DNA of 64,000 nucleotides from a virus. A program made the position numbers and the translations under genes. The DNA is taken from the IMG/VR virus record IMGVR_UViG_3300013108_000468, positions 24,783 to 88,782 of that record, one strand, 5' to 3'. Shown piece after piece: positions 31,458 through 39,770 of this stretch (position 1 is the stretch's first letter; each line of letters starts with the position of its first letter). Below the pieces are notes generated by a model. It did no database searches. It saw only the letters and a program-made list of their open reading frames with translations, and was not told where the DNA came from.

Positions 31458-31967
31458 ATGCAAAACATTGATTACTTGAACGAAACGTTGGGGTCAGCAA
31501 CCTCAGCACGAGATTCTTTCGTTGCCAACATGGGAACAGACTACAGTCGAAGCAACCTCGACCGCTTGCAGGCGCTCCAGTCTGCTGTAAACGAGGCGCA
31601 AAGCCGACTTGAATCAGCAACGAACAGCAACGGAACTAATGGTTCTGGTGGTGTTAACGGAGGAGGAAACATCTCCTTCGCCGCCCCGTCCACAAGCACA
31701 GTCAGCGCCGCTGACATGTGTGTTGTTACGCTTATCCGAAATGGTAAGTCTGACCGTTGCCTTGAAGTTCGCACTGACTCCACTCTTGGAGACATCGTGA
31801 GTACGCTAAATACGCAAGAGGGCGGCTGGGATATTCGCAGCCTCACCTTCAAGCGACGAGTTGGCCCTGGCCAAACCGCAGACATTACGGACCCGAACAG
31901 CACCGTTCTCGGTGAAGGGCCGCATGAGATTTGGGTTGGTAACAAGGTTGCTGGTGGACGACAGTAG
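31458..31967 (+). CDS. Ubiquitin-like protein with processed-type GG C-terminus
   Basis: 169 residues, AAGGAG upstream. Residues 1-55 form a helical/coiled region, 56-84 a Gly/Asn/Ser linker, and 86-165 a beta-grasp-like domain (CVVTLIRNGKSDRCLEV hairpin, TLGDIVSTL helix, then strands ending HEIWVGNKVAGG). The chain ends G166-G167-R168-Q169. Two residues after GG are typical of ubiquitin-like precursors trimmed by a JAMM or similar peptidase before activation. E2, JAMM and E1 genes follow in order. A terminator separates it from them, so it may be made in excess. Beta-grasp assignment is from pattern and context. Confidence 0.75.
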   Translation: MQNIDYLNETLGSATSARDSFVANMGTDYSRSNLDRLQALQSAVNEAQSRLESATNSNGTNGSGGVNGGGNISFAAPSTSTVSAADMCVVTLIRNGKSDRCLEVRTDSTLGDIVSTLNTQEGGWDIRSLTFKRRVGPGQTADITDPNSTVLGEGPHEIWVGNKVAGGRQ

Positions 31968-32022: not shown

Positions 32023-32032
32023 AATAAAAGTG

Positions 32033-32069
32033 GCGGGTGTCCCCTTCGGGGGGCATCCGCTATTTTTTT
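32033..32069 (+). terminator. Strong rho-independent terminator between Ubl and E2 genes
   Basis: A 12-bp stem (GCGGGTGTCCCC with GGGGGCATCCGC) capped by TTCG, then TATTTTTTT. Confidence 0.88.
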
Positions 32070-32080
32070 GTGGAGAAACT

Positions 32081-33190
32081 ATGGCATCAACAGCAAAAAA
32101 CTACGAACTAACTTTTAATGGTGACGACGCTCTGATTGCCAAACAACTTCAGACCATCATCACCGACTCAGAAAGTCTTGCTTCAAAAGAGCTTATAAAA
32201 TTGTCTGCCGCGCTAGAAAGAGAGCGTGCCGCAGAACGAATGCACAACAATAAGGTCTCTGCTAGGTCGGCTATCTATACCCGAGCCCAGCAACGCCTTG
32301 CTGCCAAGGAGGCAGAGTACGACCGTGCCAGAGCGAGAACGCGTGCTGCCAGACAAAAGCTTATGGACCGAAGTTCAAAGTCTTCTCAGGCAAGAGACCG
32401 AGCGGAAAGGTGTGAGCGAGCTATTGCGCAGATAAAAAGGCGCTTGGAGTTGAACGGAGAAATCTACACAGAGGATGGTTTCGAAAAAAGAGCGTTGATG
32501 ATTCGTTTCATTGAGGGTCTCATCGATACGCGTGTCCCAATCAAGTTCTCCACAATCAGTGCAGATGAGCAAAAACTAACTTGGAGAACTAACGATATCT
32601 TCATAAAAGATGGTTTCGGATCTGTTCTCCCACACAACTTTGGTAAATTTGATTGCTCTGTAACTTACAACGGTGACCCCGTTCGAGGAAACCGAGTCAC
32701 TGTATACTGCAAAAGCGTTAACCCGGATGAGGGTAACAGGAGAAACTATCCGCACCCACATCTAAACGAGCATGGTGCAGCATGCCTAGGCAATATCCAA
32801 CCCACCCTAATACAAGATATGGGTGTTAAGGATATCGCTAAAGTAATCGAAACGCTCACGGACTTTCTACAACATTATAATAGAGAGAACCCGTACGTAC
32901 ACTTATCTGCGTGGTGCCCAAACAGATGGGACAACGCTGTATGTGAGTCAGGGAACCACATCATGGCGGATTGTGAGTGTCCTAGATGCAACGAATGCGG
33001 AACTATCCAAGAACAAGAAGACCTTAGCGGCTGTGGTCACTGCCATAGCTGCTGCATGGTTCATCACGTTCATCCGATAAACCCGCCAGCATCATATAGA
33101 GGAATAAACGGAACACCCTGCATCTCAAGAAACGAGTATGCAGCCCGTTTCGCTCAACAACAAACCAATCCAGGAGGAACTAATGACTAA
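32081..33190 (+). CDS. E2-like ubiquitin-conjugating protein with coiled coil and RING-like zinc tail
   Basis: 369 residues from ATG 32081 (TGGAG upstream). Residues about 30-125 are a long Arg/Ala/Glu coiled coil. Residues about 150-275 look like a UBC fold; YPHPHLNEHGAACLGN (223-238) matches the E2 active-site loop (HPN...G..CL) with C235 as the expected thioester Cys. Residues 288-329 are Cys/His-rich (CECPRCNECG, then CGHCHSCCMVHH), able to bind two zinc ions like a RING or other treble clef, so E2 and E3-like functions may be fused. It would take the Ubl from the E1 at 34199 and pass it to substrates. Overlaps the JAMM gene by 8 nt. Confidence 0.78.
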   Translation: MASTAKNYELTFNGDDALIAKQLQTIITDSESLASKELIKLSAALERERAAERMHNNKVSARSAIYTRAQQRLAAKEAEYDRARARTRAARQKLMDRSSKSSQARDRAERCERAIAQIKRRLELNGEIYTEDGFEKRALMIRFIEGLIDTRVPIKFSTISADEQKLTWRTNDIFIKDGFGSVLPHNFGKFDCSVTYNGDPVRGNRVTVYCKSVNPDEGNRRNYPHPHLNEHGAACLGNIQPTLIQDMGVKDIAKVIETLTDFLQHYNRENPYVHLSAWCPNRWDNAVCESGNHIMADCECPRCNECGTIQEQEDLSGCGHCHSCCMVHHVHPINPPASYRGINGTPCISRNEYAARFAQQQTNPGGTND

Positions 33191-34202
33191 AGTTCTAACA
33201 AAGCCAACCGTCCGATTTACACAAAAAGCATATCAACAAATGACAGCATTGACTGATGAGTGCCCAATTGAGATATCAGCAATTGGTATTATTGCCACAG
33301 ATGCTCAACGAAATGAGTGGGGCATTAAAGAGCCTTTCTATGTTCTAGAATTCTATGTTCCAGACCAAGAGTGCACTGGGGGCAGTACTGTCTTCGATAT
33401 GGACTCTTATGCAGATGTGTCTTTGGAGCTTAGGGACCAGGGGATAAGTTCAGACCAAATCTGTGTATGGTGGCACTCCCATGTAAATATGGATACCGGT
33501 CATTCCGGAACAGACGAGAAACAAATTGAAGAATTCAATTTTGATAAGGTCTGTATTAGCGTAATCTCCAACAAAAAGAGAGACCTCAATGTCCGGGTAG
33601 ATATGTACAACCCGTTCAGGTTTTCCTTTGAAAAGTGTGGATGGTCTGTTGATCAGGTAAGCATCTTGGAGGACGGCTGGGCAAAGGAGATGGTTGAAGA
33701 CCACGTCTCTCGACCCGCGCCTACGCAACTAAATGTTGTCAAACACACAAGAAAGTACACTACCGGTTCATACACGGGAAAAGTAAACGGCCACCAGAGC
33801 TTCTTCGGCCACTGGGACGACGACTACATCGGCTGGGACGGCGGTCATCAAAGCAAAGAAGCTGGAGACGACAAAAGCGAAAGCGCTTCGGACGAAGATG
33901 ACTTGATCGCGAATGTTGAGTACGTAAAAGAGTCTCTGCGGTTGCCCGATGAACTAGAGCTTCTGGCAGAACTCTACGAAGAAAACATCGTAGATCTTAC
34001 AGAGGTCATTGAATATCACTCTAAGTGGTACGCAAAAGAAATGAGCACAGAGGAAATTTTGGATGAGTTGTCTGGACTGTACTACGACGTCGGAAGCAAA
34101 AAGGACGACGAAGAACAGGACGATGAAGTCCAGAAAATCCTAGCAGCAGAGTTTGGAGAAGACGACGAGGATGAAGATGAGCCGGTTGGGGTGGCAGTAT
34201 GA
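33183..34202 (+). CDS. JAB/MPN (JAMM) metallopeptidase, deubiquitinase-like
   Basis: 339 residues from ATG 33183 with AGGAGG upstream. A complete JAMM motif is present: E30 (IEISAIG), then H98-S-H100-x7-S108-x2-D111 (WWHSHVNMDTGHSGTDE). The zinc peptidase domain spans about 1-145. The C-terminal 190 residues are very acidic with a helical middle (about 240-310), not part of the usual fold, and may bind partners. Likely role: trim the Ubl tail to GG and/or remove the Ubl from substrates. Overlaps both neighbours (8 and 4 nt), so its level is tied to E2 and E1. Confidence 0.85.
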   Translation: MTKVLTKPTVRFTQKAYQQMTALTDECPIEISAIGIIATDAQRNEWGIKEPFYVLEFYVPDQECTGGSTVFDMDSYADVSLELRDQGISSDQICVWWHSHVNMDTGHSGTDEKQIEEFNFDKVCISVISNKKRDLNVRVDMYNPFRFSFEKCGWSVDQVSILEDGWAKEMVEDHVSRPAPTQLNVVKHTRKYTTGSYTGKVNGHQSFFGHWDDDYIGWDGGHQSKEAGDDKSESASDEDDLIANVEYVKESLRLPDELELLAELYEENIVDLTEVIEYHSKWYAKEMSTEEILDELSGLYYDVGSKKDDEEQDDEVQKILAAEFGEDDEDEDEPVGVAV

Positions 34203-34864
34203 TTGATACCACACGCCAGTCCGGAATTATCCCAGACGAAATCGTACAGAACCGCTCTGTAGCTATTGTTGGCGCAGGGGCTATTGGGTCCCATGTTGCT
34301 GAAGCCTTGTGCAAGATGGGTATTCGAAAGATACGCATCTATGACTTTGACGATGTCGAGTCTCACAACGTAGCCAATCAAGGCTATTTCGTGACCGAAA
34401 TTGGGTATAAGAAATGTGAAGCCTTGCAGCAACGGCTATCGGAAGGAACCGGTGCGGAAATCATCGCTGAAGACAGGAAGTTCGAGGGGGGTGAAACCTT
34501 CCAAGAAGACTATGTAATCTCAGCAGTGGACAATATGTCTGCTCGCTCAGATATCTGGTCAAGCTTTCTTGTAAGCAGCGGAGCAAAGTATTTCCTGGAC
34601 GGTCGTATGGGAGCGCGTGAAGGATCTGTCTTCTATGTAGACAAATCAAATGCAAACAGCGTTTCCTACTACGACCAAAGTCTGTTTCCTGACGAAGAAG
34701 CGGTGCAGCTACCGTGCACAGAAAAAAGCACAATTTTCTGCGCATATGGCATTTCAAGTATTATTTGTGCTCTCGTTGCCAAAAGTATTATCGGTGATGA
34801 GATAAATTATTCAGTGGATGTAGACTTCCTCAACTTCCACTTAAATCGCAATTCTGCGAGCTAG
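34199..34864 (+). CDS. E1-like (ThiF/MoeB family) Ubl-activating enzyme
   Basis: 221 residues, start overlapping the previous stop (ATGA). Rossmann nucleotide site VAIVGAGAIGSH (G25-G30), D49/D51 in IYDFDDVESHN, N57, Q61, and SAVDNMSAR (D111, R116) are E1-family landmarks. C173 in LPCTEKST is the candidate catalytic Cys. It lacks the zinc CxxC pairs of ThiF/MoeB, as do several E1s of bacterial Ubl operons. Function: adenylate the Ubl C-terminus with ATP and form a thioester. Shorter than MoeB (about 250). Confidence 0.85.
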   Translation: MIDTTRQSGIIPDEIVQNRSVAIVGAGAIGSHVAEALCKMGIRKIRIYDFDDVESHNVANQGYFVTEIGYKKCEALQQRLSEGTGAEIIAEDRKFEGGETFQEDYVISAVDNMSARSDIWSSFLVSSGAKYFLDGRMGAREGSVFYVDKSNANSVSYYDQSLFPDEEAVQLPCTEKSTIFCAYGISSIICALVAKSIIGDEINYSVDVDFLNFHLNRNSAS

Positions 34865-38192: not shown

Positions 38193-39770
38193 ATGAGGTC
38201 GGTCGAAGAACTCGACCTTCTGATTCGTGCTGCCTACCCGGCCATCTTTGTAGTTTCCTACGAAGAAGGTCGGGTAGAGCAGTGCTTATCAGGAATAATC
38301 GAGAGACGGAACAACAAGCAGGGGTTGAATTCCAAATTACATGTTTGGTCAATCACTGAAGGTTGCCGTTGCGGTGAAAATGTTCTTTCAGAACTCGACG
38401 GACCTCTAGATGTTCTGGATTATATCCAGGGGTATAGAGAATCCGGCGTATTCCTATTACGAGACTTTGCTAATTTTCTTAACACCGGACCAGAGTATTT
38501 GGTTCAGCGTAAGCTGAGAGATACCCTTTCTAATCTAGGCCCAGGAATCAACATCGTTATTGTTGACTCTGAGCTTGAGATCCCGCCTCGGTTAGAGAAG
38601 CTTATTGCAGTAGTTGATTTTGATCTACCAAGTATTCAAGAGCTAAACGGGACAGCACATCTTTTGATGGCCGACTGTGCAGCCACGGCAACCTTGCAAG
38701 AGGACGCTAGAAACAACATGGTGGACATTGGGTCAAACGCAGCACTCGGACTAACATTGGCTGAAGCCGAAAACGTCTTTGCGAAGTCTCTAGCCCATGC
38801 GAGCATGCTCGACCCCCAAATAATCATTGAGGAGAAAAAGCACATCATCCGAAAGAGTGGGGTGCTCCAGTTCTACGATGTTGACAGAGACATGAACTCT
38901 GTTGGGGGGCTTGAGAATCTGAAGAAGTGGCTGCACCAACGGGGCGGCTCGTTCAGTGAAGAAGCACGAGAGTACGGACTACCTAACCCACGCGGAGTTC
39001 TTATTGTAGGAATCCCAGGAACAGGTAAAAGCCTTGTCTCAAAGTGCATCGGACATGATTGGGGTATGCCCGTCTTAAGGATGGATGTAGGCTCGCTATT
39101 TGGCTCGCTAGTTGGTCAATCAGAAGCGAACATGCGAAAAGCCCTTAAAACTGCTGAGGCCTTAGCGCCTTGTGTCTTGTGGATTGACGAGCTTGAGAAA
39201 AGCCTAGGAAGTTCTACAGGAGTCTCCGATAGTGGGACGACCGCAAGGGTCTTCGGTTCCTTCCTGAGTTGGATGCAAGAAAAGACATCTCCGGTGTTCG
39301 TCGTTGCAACAGCAAATGATGTATCGGCACTTCCACCAGAGATGTTGCGTAAAGGTCGCTTTGATGAGCTGTTTTTCGTAGATCTTCCGGGGGAAGAAGA
39401 CCGGGAGTCTATTATCAATATCCATCTTGGTAGATACGGTAGAGACCCTTCCGTTTTAACTGGGGATTACCCCGGACATGACACTGGAATGGCCGCACTA
39501 GTCGATGCCACAGATGGTTTCTCTGGCGCTGAGCTAGAGCAAATTATTATTGATGGTATGTATAAAGCTTTTCCTGAAGGAAGAGATCCTACAGCAGACG
39601 ACTACCTATCAGCCGCTGTTAACACAGTTCCACTTTCCGCCACTATGGAGACTCAAATTGAGGGCCTGCGTAAATGGGCGGCTGGTCGAGCTATAATGGC
39701 AAACGACAACTCCCAAAAGGAGATTCGTAAACCATCGAGTAAAAAGACCAGAAGGAGAATCATGAGTTGA
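38193..39770 (+). CDS. Ycf46-type AAA+ ATPase
   Basis: 525 residues, start immediately after the ParB stop. The N-terminal 190 residues (LLIRAAYPAIFVVSYEEGRV, HVWSITEG, VFLLRDFANFL) match the Ycf46 N-terminal region. The AAA+ module (about 240-490) has Walker A GIPGTGKS (about 273-280), a pore-loop-like GSLFGSLVGQSE, Walker B LWIDELE (about 328), sensor 1 ATAND, and the arginine finger region RKGRFDELF. Ycf46 proteins of cyanobacteria and plastids are remodelling ATPases with poorly known targets. Beside a Ubl system it might unfold modified proteins; inference only. Confidence 0.85.
   Translation: MRSVEELDLLIRAAYPAIFVVSYEEGRVEQCLSGIIERRNNKQGLNSKLHVWSITEGCRCGENVLSELDGPLDVLDYIQGYRESGVFLLRDFANFLNTGPEYLVQRKLRDTLSNLGPGINIVIVDSELEIPPRLEKLIAVVDFDLPSIQELNGTAHLLMADCAATATLQEDARNNMVDIGSNAALGLTLAEAENVFAKSLAHASMLDPQIIIEEKKHIIRKSGVLQFYDVDRDMNSVGGLENLKKWLHQRGGSFSEEAREYGLPNPRGVLIVGIPGTGKSLVSKCIGHDWGMPVLRMDVGSLFGSLVGQSEANMRKALKTAEALAPCVLWIDELEKSLGSSTGVSDSGTTARVFGSFLSWMQEKTSPVFVVATANDVSALPPEMLRKGRFDELFFVDLPGEEDRESIINIHLGRYGRDPSVLTGDYPGHDTGMAALVDATDGFSGAELEQIIIDGMYKAFPEGRDPTADDYLSAAVNTVPLSATMETQIEGLRKWAAGRAIMANDNSQKEIRKPSSKKTRRRIMS

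Follow-up and report, generated by a model that had tools for sequence, protein, structure and literature searches.

Can a bacteriophage encode a ubiquitin-like (Ubl) conjugation pathway of its own, and can the E2 enzyme of such a pathway carry the E3-like part within the same chain? This question is raised by a locus in a 64,000-nucleotide stretch of DNA (the window), which comes from an IMG/VR phage contig of 88.8 kb. Most known ubiquitin-like systems of prokaryotes are bacterial operons, and several of these are antiviral; the pathway described here is found in phages, at roughly 40 loci. The protein of interest, P0001, combines an E2-like domain with a dense Cys/His cluster, and one chain of it may combine the roles that normally fall to an E2 and an E3 as different proteins, because its Cys-rich tail has a RING-like relative in a sister virus. 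The main reading, to which a probability of about 0.48 is given, is that P0001 is the E2 of a phage Ubl pathway and that its C-terminal, RING-derived zinc module acts in cis as an E3-like part. If this is true, such an E2, with a RING-like domain of its own, would represent a minimal E2-E3 in which the origin of RING-assisted transfer could conveniently be studied. It would also raise the question of what the phages tag, be it proteins of host defence or the machinery that replicates the phage. The parts of the cassette are all small, so reconstitution in vitro is realistic.

P0001 (369 aa) is encoded at 32081..33190, on the + strand like all of the window features described below, by an open reading frame that starts with ATG 32081. 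This codon is preceded by GTGGAGAAACT, which contains a Shine-Dalgarno-like GGAG. An alternative GTG at 32030, located 51 bases before it, is part of a terminator hairpin. With the start placed at ATG 32081, the residue numbering of the initial annotation is correct, and its interval 32942-33070 corresponds to residues 288-330. Searches of phages, plasmids and bacterial genomes returned no close relatives, either with the full protein or with the zinc region alone, and IMG/VR contains only three distinct close relatives, the window's own phage included. These are the window, L026 and L027 (the close trio), the latter two being 55% and 46% identical to P0001. The E2 protein and neighbourhood of a 181 kb contig, L002, are identical to those of the window over the stretch fetched, so this contig probably represents the same phage. 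Beyond the close trio, the nearest relative is L037, in which the E1 is 49% identical, the cassette is collinear and the ParB and AAA neighbours are shared. The E2, the Ubl and the zinc domain have no significant match in the Pfam, NCBIfam or PHROGs libraries.

The genes are arranged in the order P0005, Ubl, E2-zinc protein, JAB, E1, two conserved unknowns, a ParB-like protein, an AAA ATPase and a RecA-like protein, and the cassette is collinear in the window and three relatives. At its head, P0005 (31083..31442) is a conserved small protein with syntenic counterparts in L026 and L027 (58-59% identity) and, weakly, in L037. The following gene (31458..31967) encodes a probable ubiquitin-like modifier with a two-residue tail beyond GG; an N-terminal helical or linker part is joined to a C-terminal domain that ends in ...WVGNKVAGG-RQ. 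The GG is invariant in three homologs and the tail beyond it differs (RQ, NA, RRPKHSW...), a variability that would fit removal of the tail by JAB. The product is homologous to the Ubl of L037 (hhalign E 1.4e-4). Small Ubls occupy the equivalent position in other cassettes, and one of them weakly matches SAMP2/TGS/Ub-Mut7C; through these small proteins and their weak SAMP2/TGS matches, a beta-grasp fold is suggested for the window Ubl as well.

Between the Ubl and E2 genes, RNA folding predicts an intrinsic terminator or attenuator (32030..32070) with a stem of 15 bp or longer, a UUCG loop and a T7 tract (-31.7 kcal/mol, z -6.7). A terminator is present at the same place in L026 and L027, where the stem has changed but is still paired through compensatory substitutions. 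Such an element may yield more Ubl than E2-JAB-E1 enzymes. Terminator-like hairpins also occur at the same place between the cassette genes of L052 and L048.

The gene for the JAB/JAMM metallopeptidase (33183..34202) overlaps the E2 stop, and the overlaps of the E2/JAB and JAB/E1 genes measure a few bases. The JAB protein has the full JAMM motif, H98-S-H100-x7-S108-x2-D111 (33474-33515), which is invariant in homologs; its match to the Prok-JAB family of Pfam is below the cut-off (E 0.066). The E1, a ThiF-type adenylating enzyme (34199..34864), consists of a single 221-aa ThiF domain (PF00899, E 1.3e-22) with a conserved C173, and G25, G27, G30, D49, D51 and C173 are invariant in nine phage E1s. 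Further downstream, P0006 (34896..35717), next to the E1, and P0007 (35889..37001) are conserved by synteny in L009, L010 and L037. An AAA+ ATPase near the cassette (38193-39767; PF00004, E 1.7e-28), with a 43% identical counterpart in L037, may serve as a partner unfoldase or simply be a neighbour.

In P0001 itself, the E2 (UBC-like) domain spans about residues 133-280 (32477..32920), as delimited by VIA-align, Foldseek and AlphaFold. Motif conservation places the active-site segment at H225-P-H227-x7-C235-L-G237 (32753..32791), with C235 as the predicted catalytic cysteine. Across 20 phage E2s, the HPH-x(n)-C-x-G motif keeps its H, P, H, C and G without exception, and the catalytic Asn of eukaryotic E2s is replaced by His in P0001. 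One phage E2, that of L046, has HPN instead of HPH and matches PF00179 at E 0.014. AlphaFold, run with three sequences, modelled about residues 140-265 of P0001 with moderate confidence. For this model, VIA-align listed numerous E2s, with a Z of about 5 over residues 133-297, and the top three Foldseek matches were E2s, but with E > 0.05. The L037 ortholog, modelled with 20 rows, reached a pLDDT of 70-87 across much of its core; nearly all of its VIA-align matches were E2, UEV, RWD or CBASS Cap2 E2 folds, and Foldseek gave no significant match for it. Since the fold matches of both models are moderate (Z only 4.6-6) and the Foldseek E values are not significant, the case for an E2 fold is built on the uniform list of matches together with the motif. 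Taken in this way, the evidence gives moderate support for P0001 as a conjugating enzyme (E2) with a UBC-like fold, and a Ubl thioester on C235 is predicted.

The E2 domain is preceded by a long helix. The initial annotation had proposed a coiled coil at residues 30-125, and AlphaFold2 supports it with a single helix over residues 16-128 (32126..32464; pLDDT about 65-82 over most of it), as do weak EzrA/SMC-like coiled-coil matches. Its sequence identity to the two close homologs is 57% and 31%.

Behind the E2 domain, residues 288-347 (32942..33121) form a Cys/His-rich, probable zinc-binding domain with 13 conserved Cys/His, which is defined by conservation, density and homology to L037. At least ten Cys/His had been reported for residues 288-329, and 14 were counted (nine Cys and five His), which makes this the densest cluster of the window. 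The chance of such a density in a random 42-residue stretch, calculated from a binomial distribution with the window's Cys/His frequency, is 7e-11; the next-densest stretch of this length, in all long ORFs of the window, has eight. Across the close trio, 13/16 Cys/His in residues 284-350 are identical, compared with 21/51 other residues (Fisher p 0.009). The conserved ligand set of the trio comprises C288, H293, C298, C300, C303, C306, C318, C321, C324, C325, H329, H331 and C347, and H320, H322 and H328 vary in the close homologs. In both comparisons, dN is lower than dS in the zinc region, though dS is saturated. Such density, together with conservation in relatives with 55% and 46% identity, points to a real, coded cluster that is kept by purifying selection. 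The number of conserved Cys/His could serve two or three zinc ions. P0001 can be regarded as a genuine fusion of an E2 and a predicted zinc-binding domain within a phage Ubl system. The original description, in which a Cys/His-rich domain is joined to an E2-like enzyme, was correct. The protein sits in a full Ubl-E2-JAB-E1 operon and has both the E2 motif and a moderate fold match.

The occurrence of such cassettes was followed with a five-sequence E1 alignment, which detected 80 viral loci. In about 40 of the loci inspected, an E2 gene with the motif adjoins the E1 and JAB genes, and a small Ubl ending in GG, AG or GN is often found upstream. Scans with the JAB alignment, P0014 and the L037 E2 added no further phages. 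Among cultured or reference phages, E2s of the same kind occur together with E1 and JAB in crAss-like phages (L003, L006, L030, L032) and in Flavobacterium phage FpV4 (L031). Xanthomonas and Erwinia phages (L004/L029) have E2- and E1-type genes, and Xanthomonas phage PhiXhv-15 has no recognised JAB. A Cys-rich C-terminal extension is present in about 15 of about 41 phage E2s and absent from about 26, all of these counts being dependent on the motif search. The extensions are highly diverse; those of L046, L063 and L078 have another Cys pattern in common, as judged by eye, and the others look unrelated. The clearest E2-RING fusion of the set is found in L090 (L090:3487-4908), whose E2 ends in an exact C3HC4 RING pattern (C-x2-C...CGHTVCSEC...C-x2-C), with the RNF4 RING as its best match among solved structures (E 0.0045). 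The extension of the L052 E2 matches the NOT4 RING at E 0.056, and a profile of L037, L090 and L052 gives weak matches to RING and FYVE fingers.

The nature of the zinc domain in P0001 is best approached through L037. The zinc domain of this virus has the pattern C-x2-C-x11-C-x3-H-x4-C-x2-C-x9-C-x2-C, which is off the RING rule by one residue and fits a relaxed version only. When it was compared with solved structures, 24 of the 25 matches were RING E3s, among them the RINGs of RNF4, RING2, BRE1 and TRIM31, and the best was the TRIM21 RING (E 0.0034). A control in which the Cys/His were kept and the rest was shuffled reached an E of only 0.15, with two RINGs (BIRC2/3) on top; the spacing thus gives part of the signal, and the sequence gives the rest. 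The E2 proteins of the window and L037 align collinearly in BLAST through the E2 and zinc regions (E 5e-9). The zinc part alone scores 33.5 bits, compared with a maximum of 25 in 100 shuffles, and hhalign of the three-sequence zinc profile against L037 yields a probability of 93.8% and a score of 39.9, compared with a maximum of 15 for shuffles. Judged by these alignments, the two zinc domains are homologous. Nine ligand positions are common to them in the BLAST alignment, namely C288, C303, C306, C318, C321, C324, C325, H329 and C347. In the same alignment, three ligands of the L037 RING pattern (the second Cys, the His and the sixth) have no counterpart in the window group, which has H293, C298, C300 and H331 of its own; an alternative alignment pairs some ligands differently.

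The window domain itself behaves differently from that of L037. The RING consensus used here (C-x2-C-x9-39-C-x1-3-H-x2-3-[CH]-x2-C-x4-48-C-x2-C) has no match in P0001 or in its two close homologs, and a direct RING reading was rejected, with the consensus failing and ligands missing or displaced. A UBR-box reading was also set aside: a loose UBR-like regular expression fits the window sequence and is absent in both homologs. Taken alone, the window domain gives weak matches to GATA fingers, and no Pfam family matches it. The profile of the close trio plus L037 prefers an eS27 zinc ribbon (E 0.011), and a ribbon pattern fits the core of the domain. The pLDDT of AlphaFold is below 50 for the zinc domain, both in P0001 (three sequences) and in the E2-zinc part of L037 (20 rows). 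The earlier term "RING-like" is thus supported indirectly, through the homologous L037 domain with its RING E3 matches and through the exact RING of L090; the window domain itself departs from the consensus and leans towards GATA fingers and ribbons. A RING-derived, E3-like domain is still the preferred reading of these sequences, closely followed by a ribbon-type binding module. Given the consensus failure, the ribbon-leaning profile and the low pLDDT, P0001 is treated here as a hypothetical single-chain ligase.

The ribbon explanation accepts a real Ubl conjugation pathway and assigns to a zinc-ribbon-type module the binding of a substrate or partner, or a structural role, so that substrate choice would be affected rather than E2 activation. 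The eS27 and GATA matches and the fit of the ribbon pattern agree with it, and so does the great diversity of the Cys-rich C-terminal domains. Moreover, about 26/41 phage E2s have no such domain, which means that it is not required for catalysis in general. This explanation has to contend with the homology between the window domain and the RING-matching domain of L037 and with the exact RING in L090, and on balance it is quite possible without being probable.

According to the preferred reading, in which the RING-derived module assists the E2 in cis, the JAB protease would probably trim the Ubl to its GG end, and the ThiF-type E1 would adenylate it and pass it to Cys235 of the E2. The trimming, the adenylation and the thioester on C235 are expected from the protein families to which the enzymes belong. 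The C-terminal Cys/His domain would fold around two or three zinc ions as a descendant of a RING/treble-clef module that is still recognisable in L037. In cis, it would hold the charged E2 or the substrate, and a separate E3 gene would not be needed. The long N-terminal helix would probably make P0001 a coiled-coil oligomer. Zinc binding, E3-like help in cis and oligomerisation are proposed with less support than the family-based steps. A wider version can be offered tentatively, at a little short of an even chance: many large phages would have a self-contained Ubl pathway with the E3 in the E2 chain, zinc modules, RINGs among them, would have been swapped repeatedly onto the E2 C-terminus, and the window would show a rewired RING with shifted zinc sites.

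A different explanation would do away with protein conjugation altogether. The cassette would then be a sulfur-carrier or other small-molecule pathway of the ThiS/ThiF/JAB type, with the E2-like protein as a scaffold. The E1 is indeed ThiF-like and has no separate Cys domain, and family models name it thiamine ThiF. In most of the cultured or reference phages, too, the E1 is annotated as a thiamine biosynthesis protein, and the other cassette genes are mostly hypothetical. However, an E2 with the invariant H-P-H...C-x-G stands beside the E1 and JAB in many phages among the surveyed cassettes with an E2, and a scan of neighbours revealed neither a cysteine desulfurase nor a thiamine gene, which makes this explanation unlikely. 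Least probable is a redox or metal-store tail (disulfides, metal buffering) apart from ubiquitin-like chemistry. Up to 13 conserved Cys/His, a CC pair and a fold that AlphaFold does not resolve would suit it, but about 15 phage E2s have different Cys-rich domains, recognisable RINGs among them, at this place behind the E2 domain, and L037 has a homologue of the window domain.

Burroughs et al. (2011; reference 9 of PMC4506424) reportedly predicted RING fingers that work with bacterial Ubl-E1-E2-JAB operons. In eukaryotes, UBE2O and BIRC6 are E2/E3 hybrids that unite E2 and E3-like activity in one chain; they are not known to have a RING behind the UBC domain, and their architecture is unrelated to that of P0001. 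The bacterial antiviral systems BilABCD and Bub resemble the window cassette in having a Ubl, an E1, an E2 and a JAB-type deconjugase, but they are bacterial defence operons, whereas the window cassette is phage-borne. BilB is not known to have a fused zinc domain. Operons of the Ubl-E1-E2-JAB type are known in bacteria (Iyer, Burroughs and Aravind 2006, PMC1779556), and the window cassette likewise brings the four core activities together in one operon; it differs from them in being phage-borne and in having an E2 with an HPH motif and a fused C-terminal zinc domain. The E1 of BilABCD, BilD, joins an inactive and an active adenylation domain to a Cys domain (PMC11354881), an architecture that is not found in the single 221-aa ThiF domain of the window E1. 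CBASS Cap2/Cap3 also combine E1/E2-type chemistry with a JAB peptidase (PMC10097602), and the L037 E2 has Cap2 chains among its structural matches. However, Cap2 is one E1-E2 chain that acts on a cGAS-like enzyme (PMC10097602), whereas the E1 and E2 of the window are separate and are accompanied by a Ubl gene; a scan of neighbouring genes around the cassette showed no CD-NTase. The E1/E2/small-RING cascade of Caldiarchaeum subterraneum is prokaryotic and has its RING E3 as a separate protein (PMC5654768), unlike the zinc domain of the window, which is fused to the E2. A literature search of incomplete coverage found nothing on phage Ubl-E2-JAB-E1 cassettes or on a phage E2 with its own RING-like or zinc module. 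What appears to be new is a phage-borne pathway whose E2 has its own zinc module, the bacterial Ubl-E1-E2-JAB operons being already known (PMC1779556).

Several other features of the phage cassettes were noted. A single cassette of L055 (L055:60-5366) has three tandem E2-like genes with the motif HPH...CWG. In L042 (L042:3801-5918), a long JAB protein of 706 aa has knuckles of the C-x2-C-x-G-x-G type that resemble DnaJ zinc fingers. Xanthomonas phage PhiXhv-15 (L004:3310-5988) encodes an 892-aa E2 fusion with Cys-rich clusters at both termini. Finally, four proteins (L003:2650-3255, L006:2568-3329, L031:2619-3488 and L032:2492-3232) have a Ubl-like start that ends in KSGA/KSGG and continues into a long extension. 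They are located upstream of the E2-JAB-E1 genes, and their layout looks as if the modifier were freed by cleavage after the glycine.
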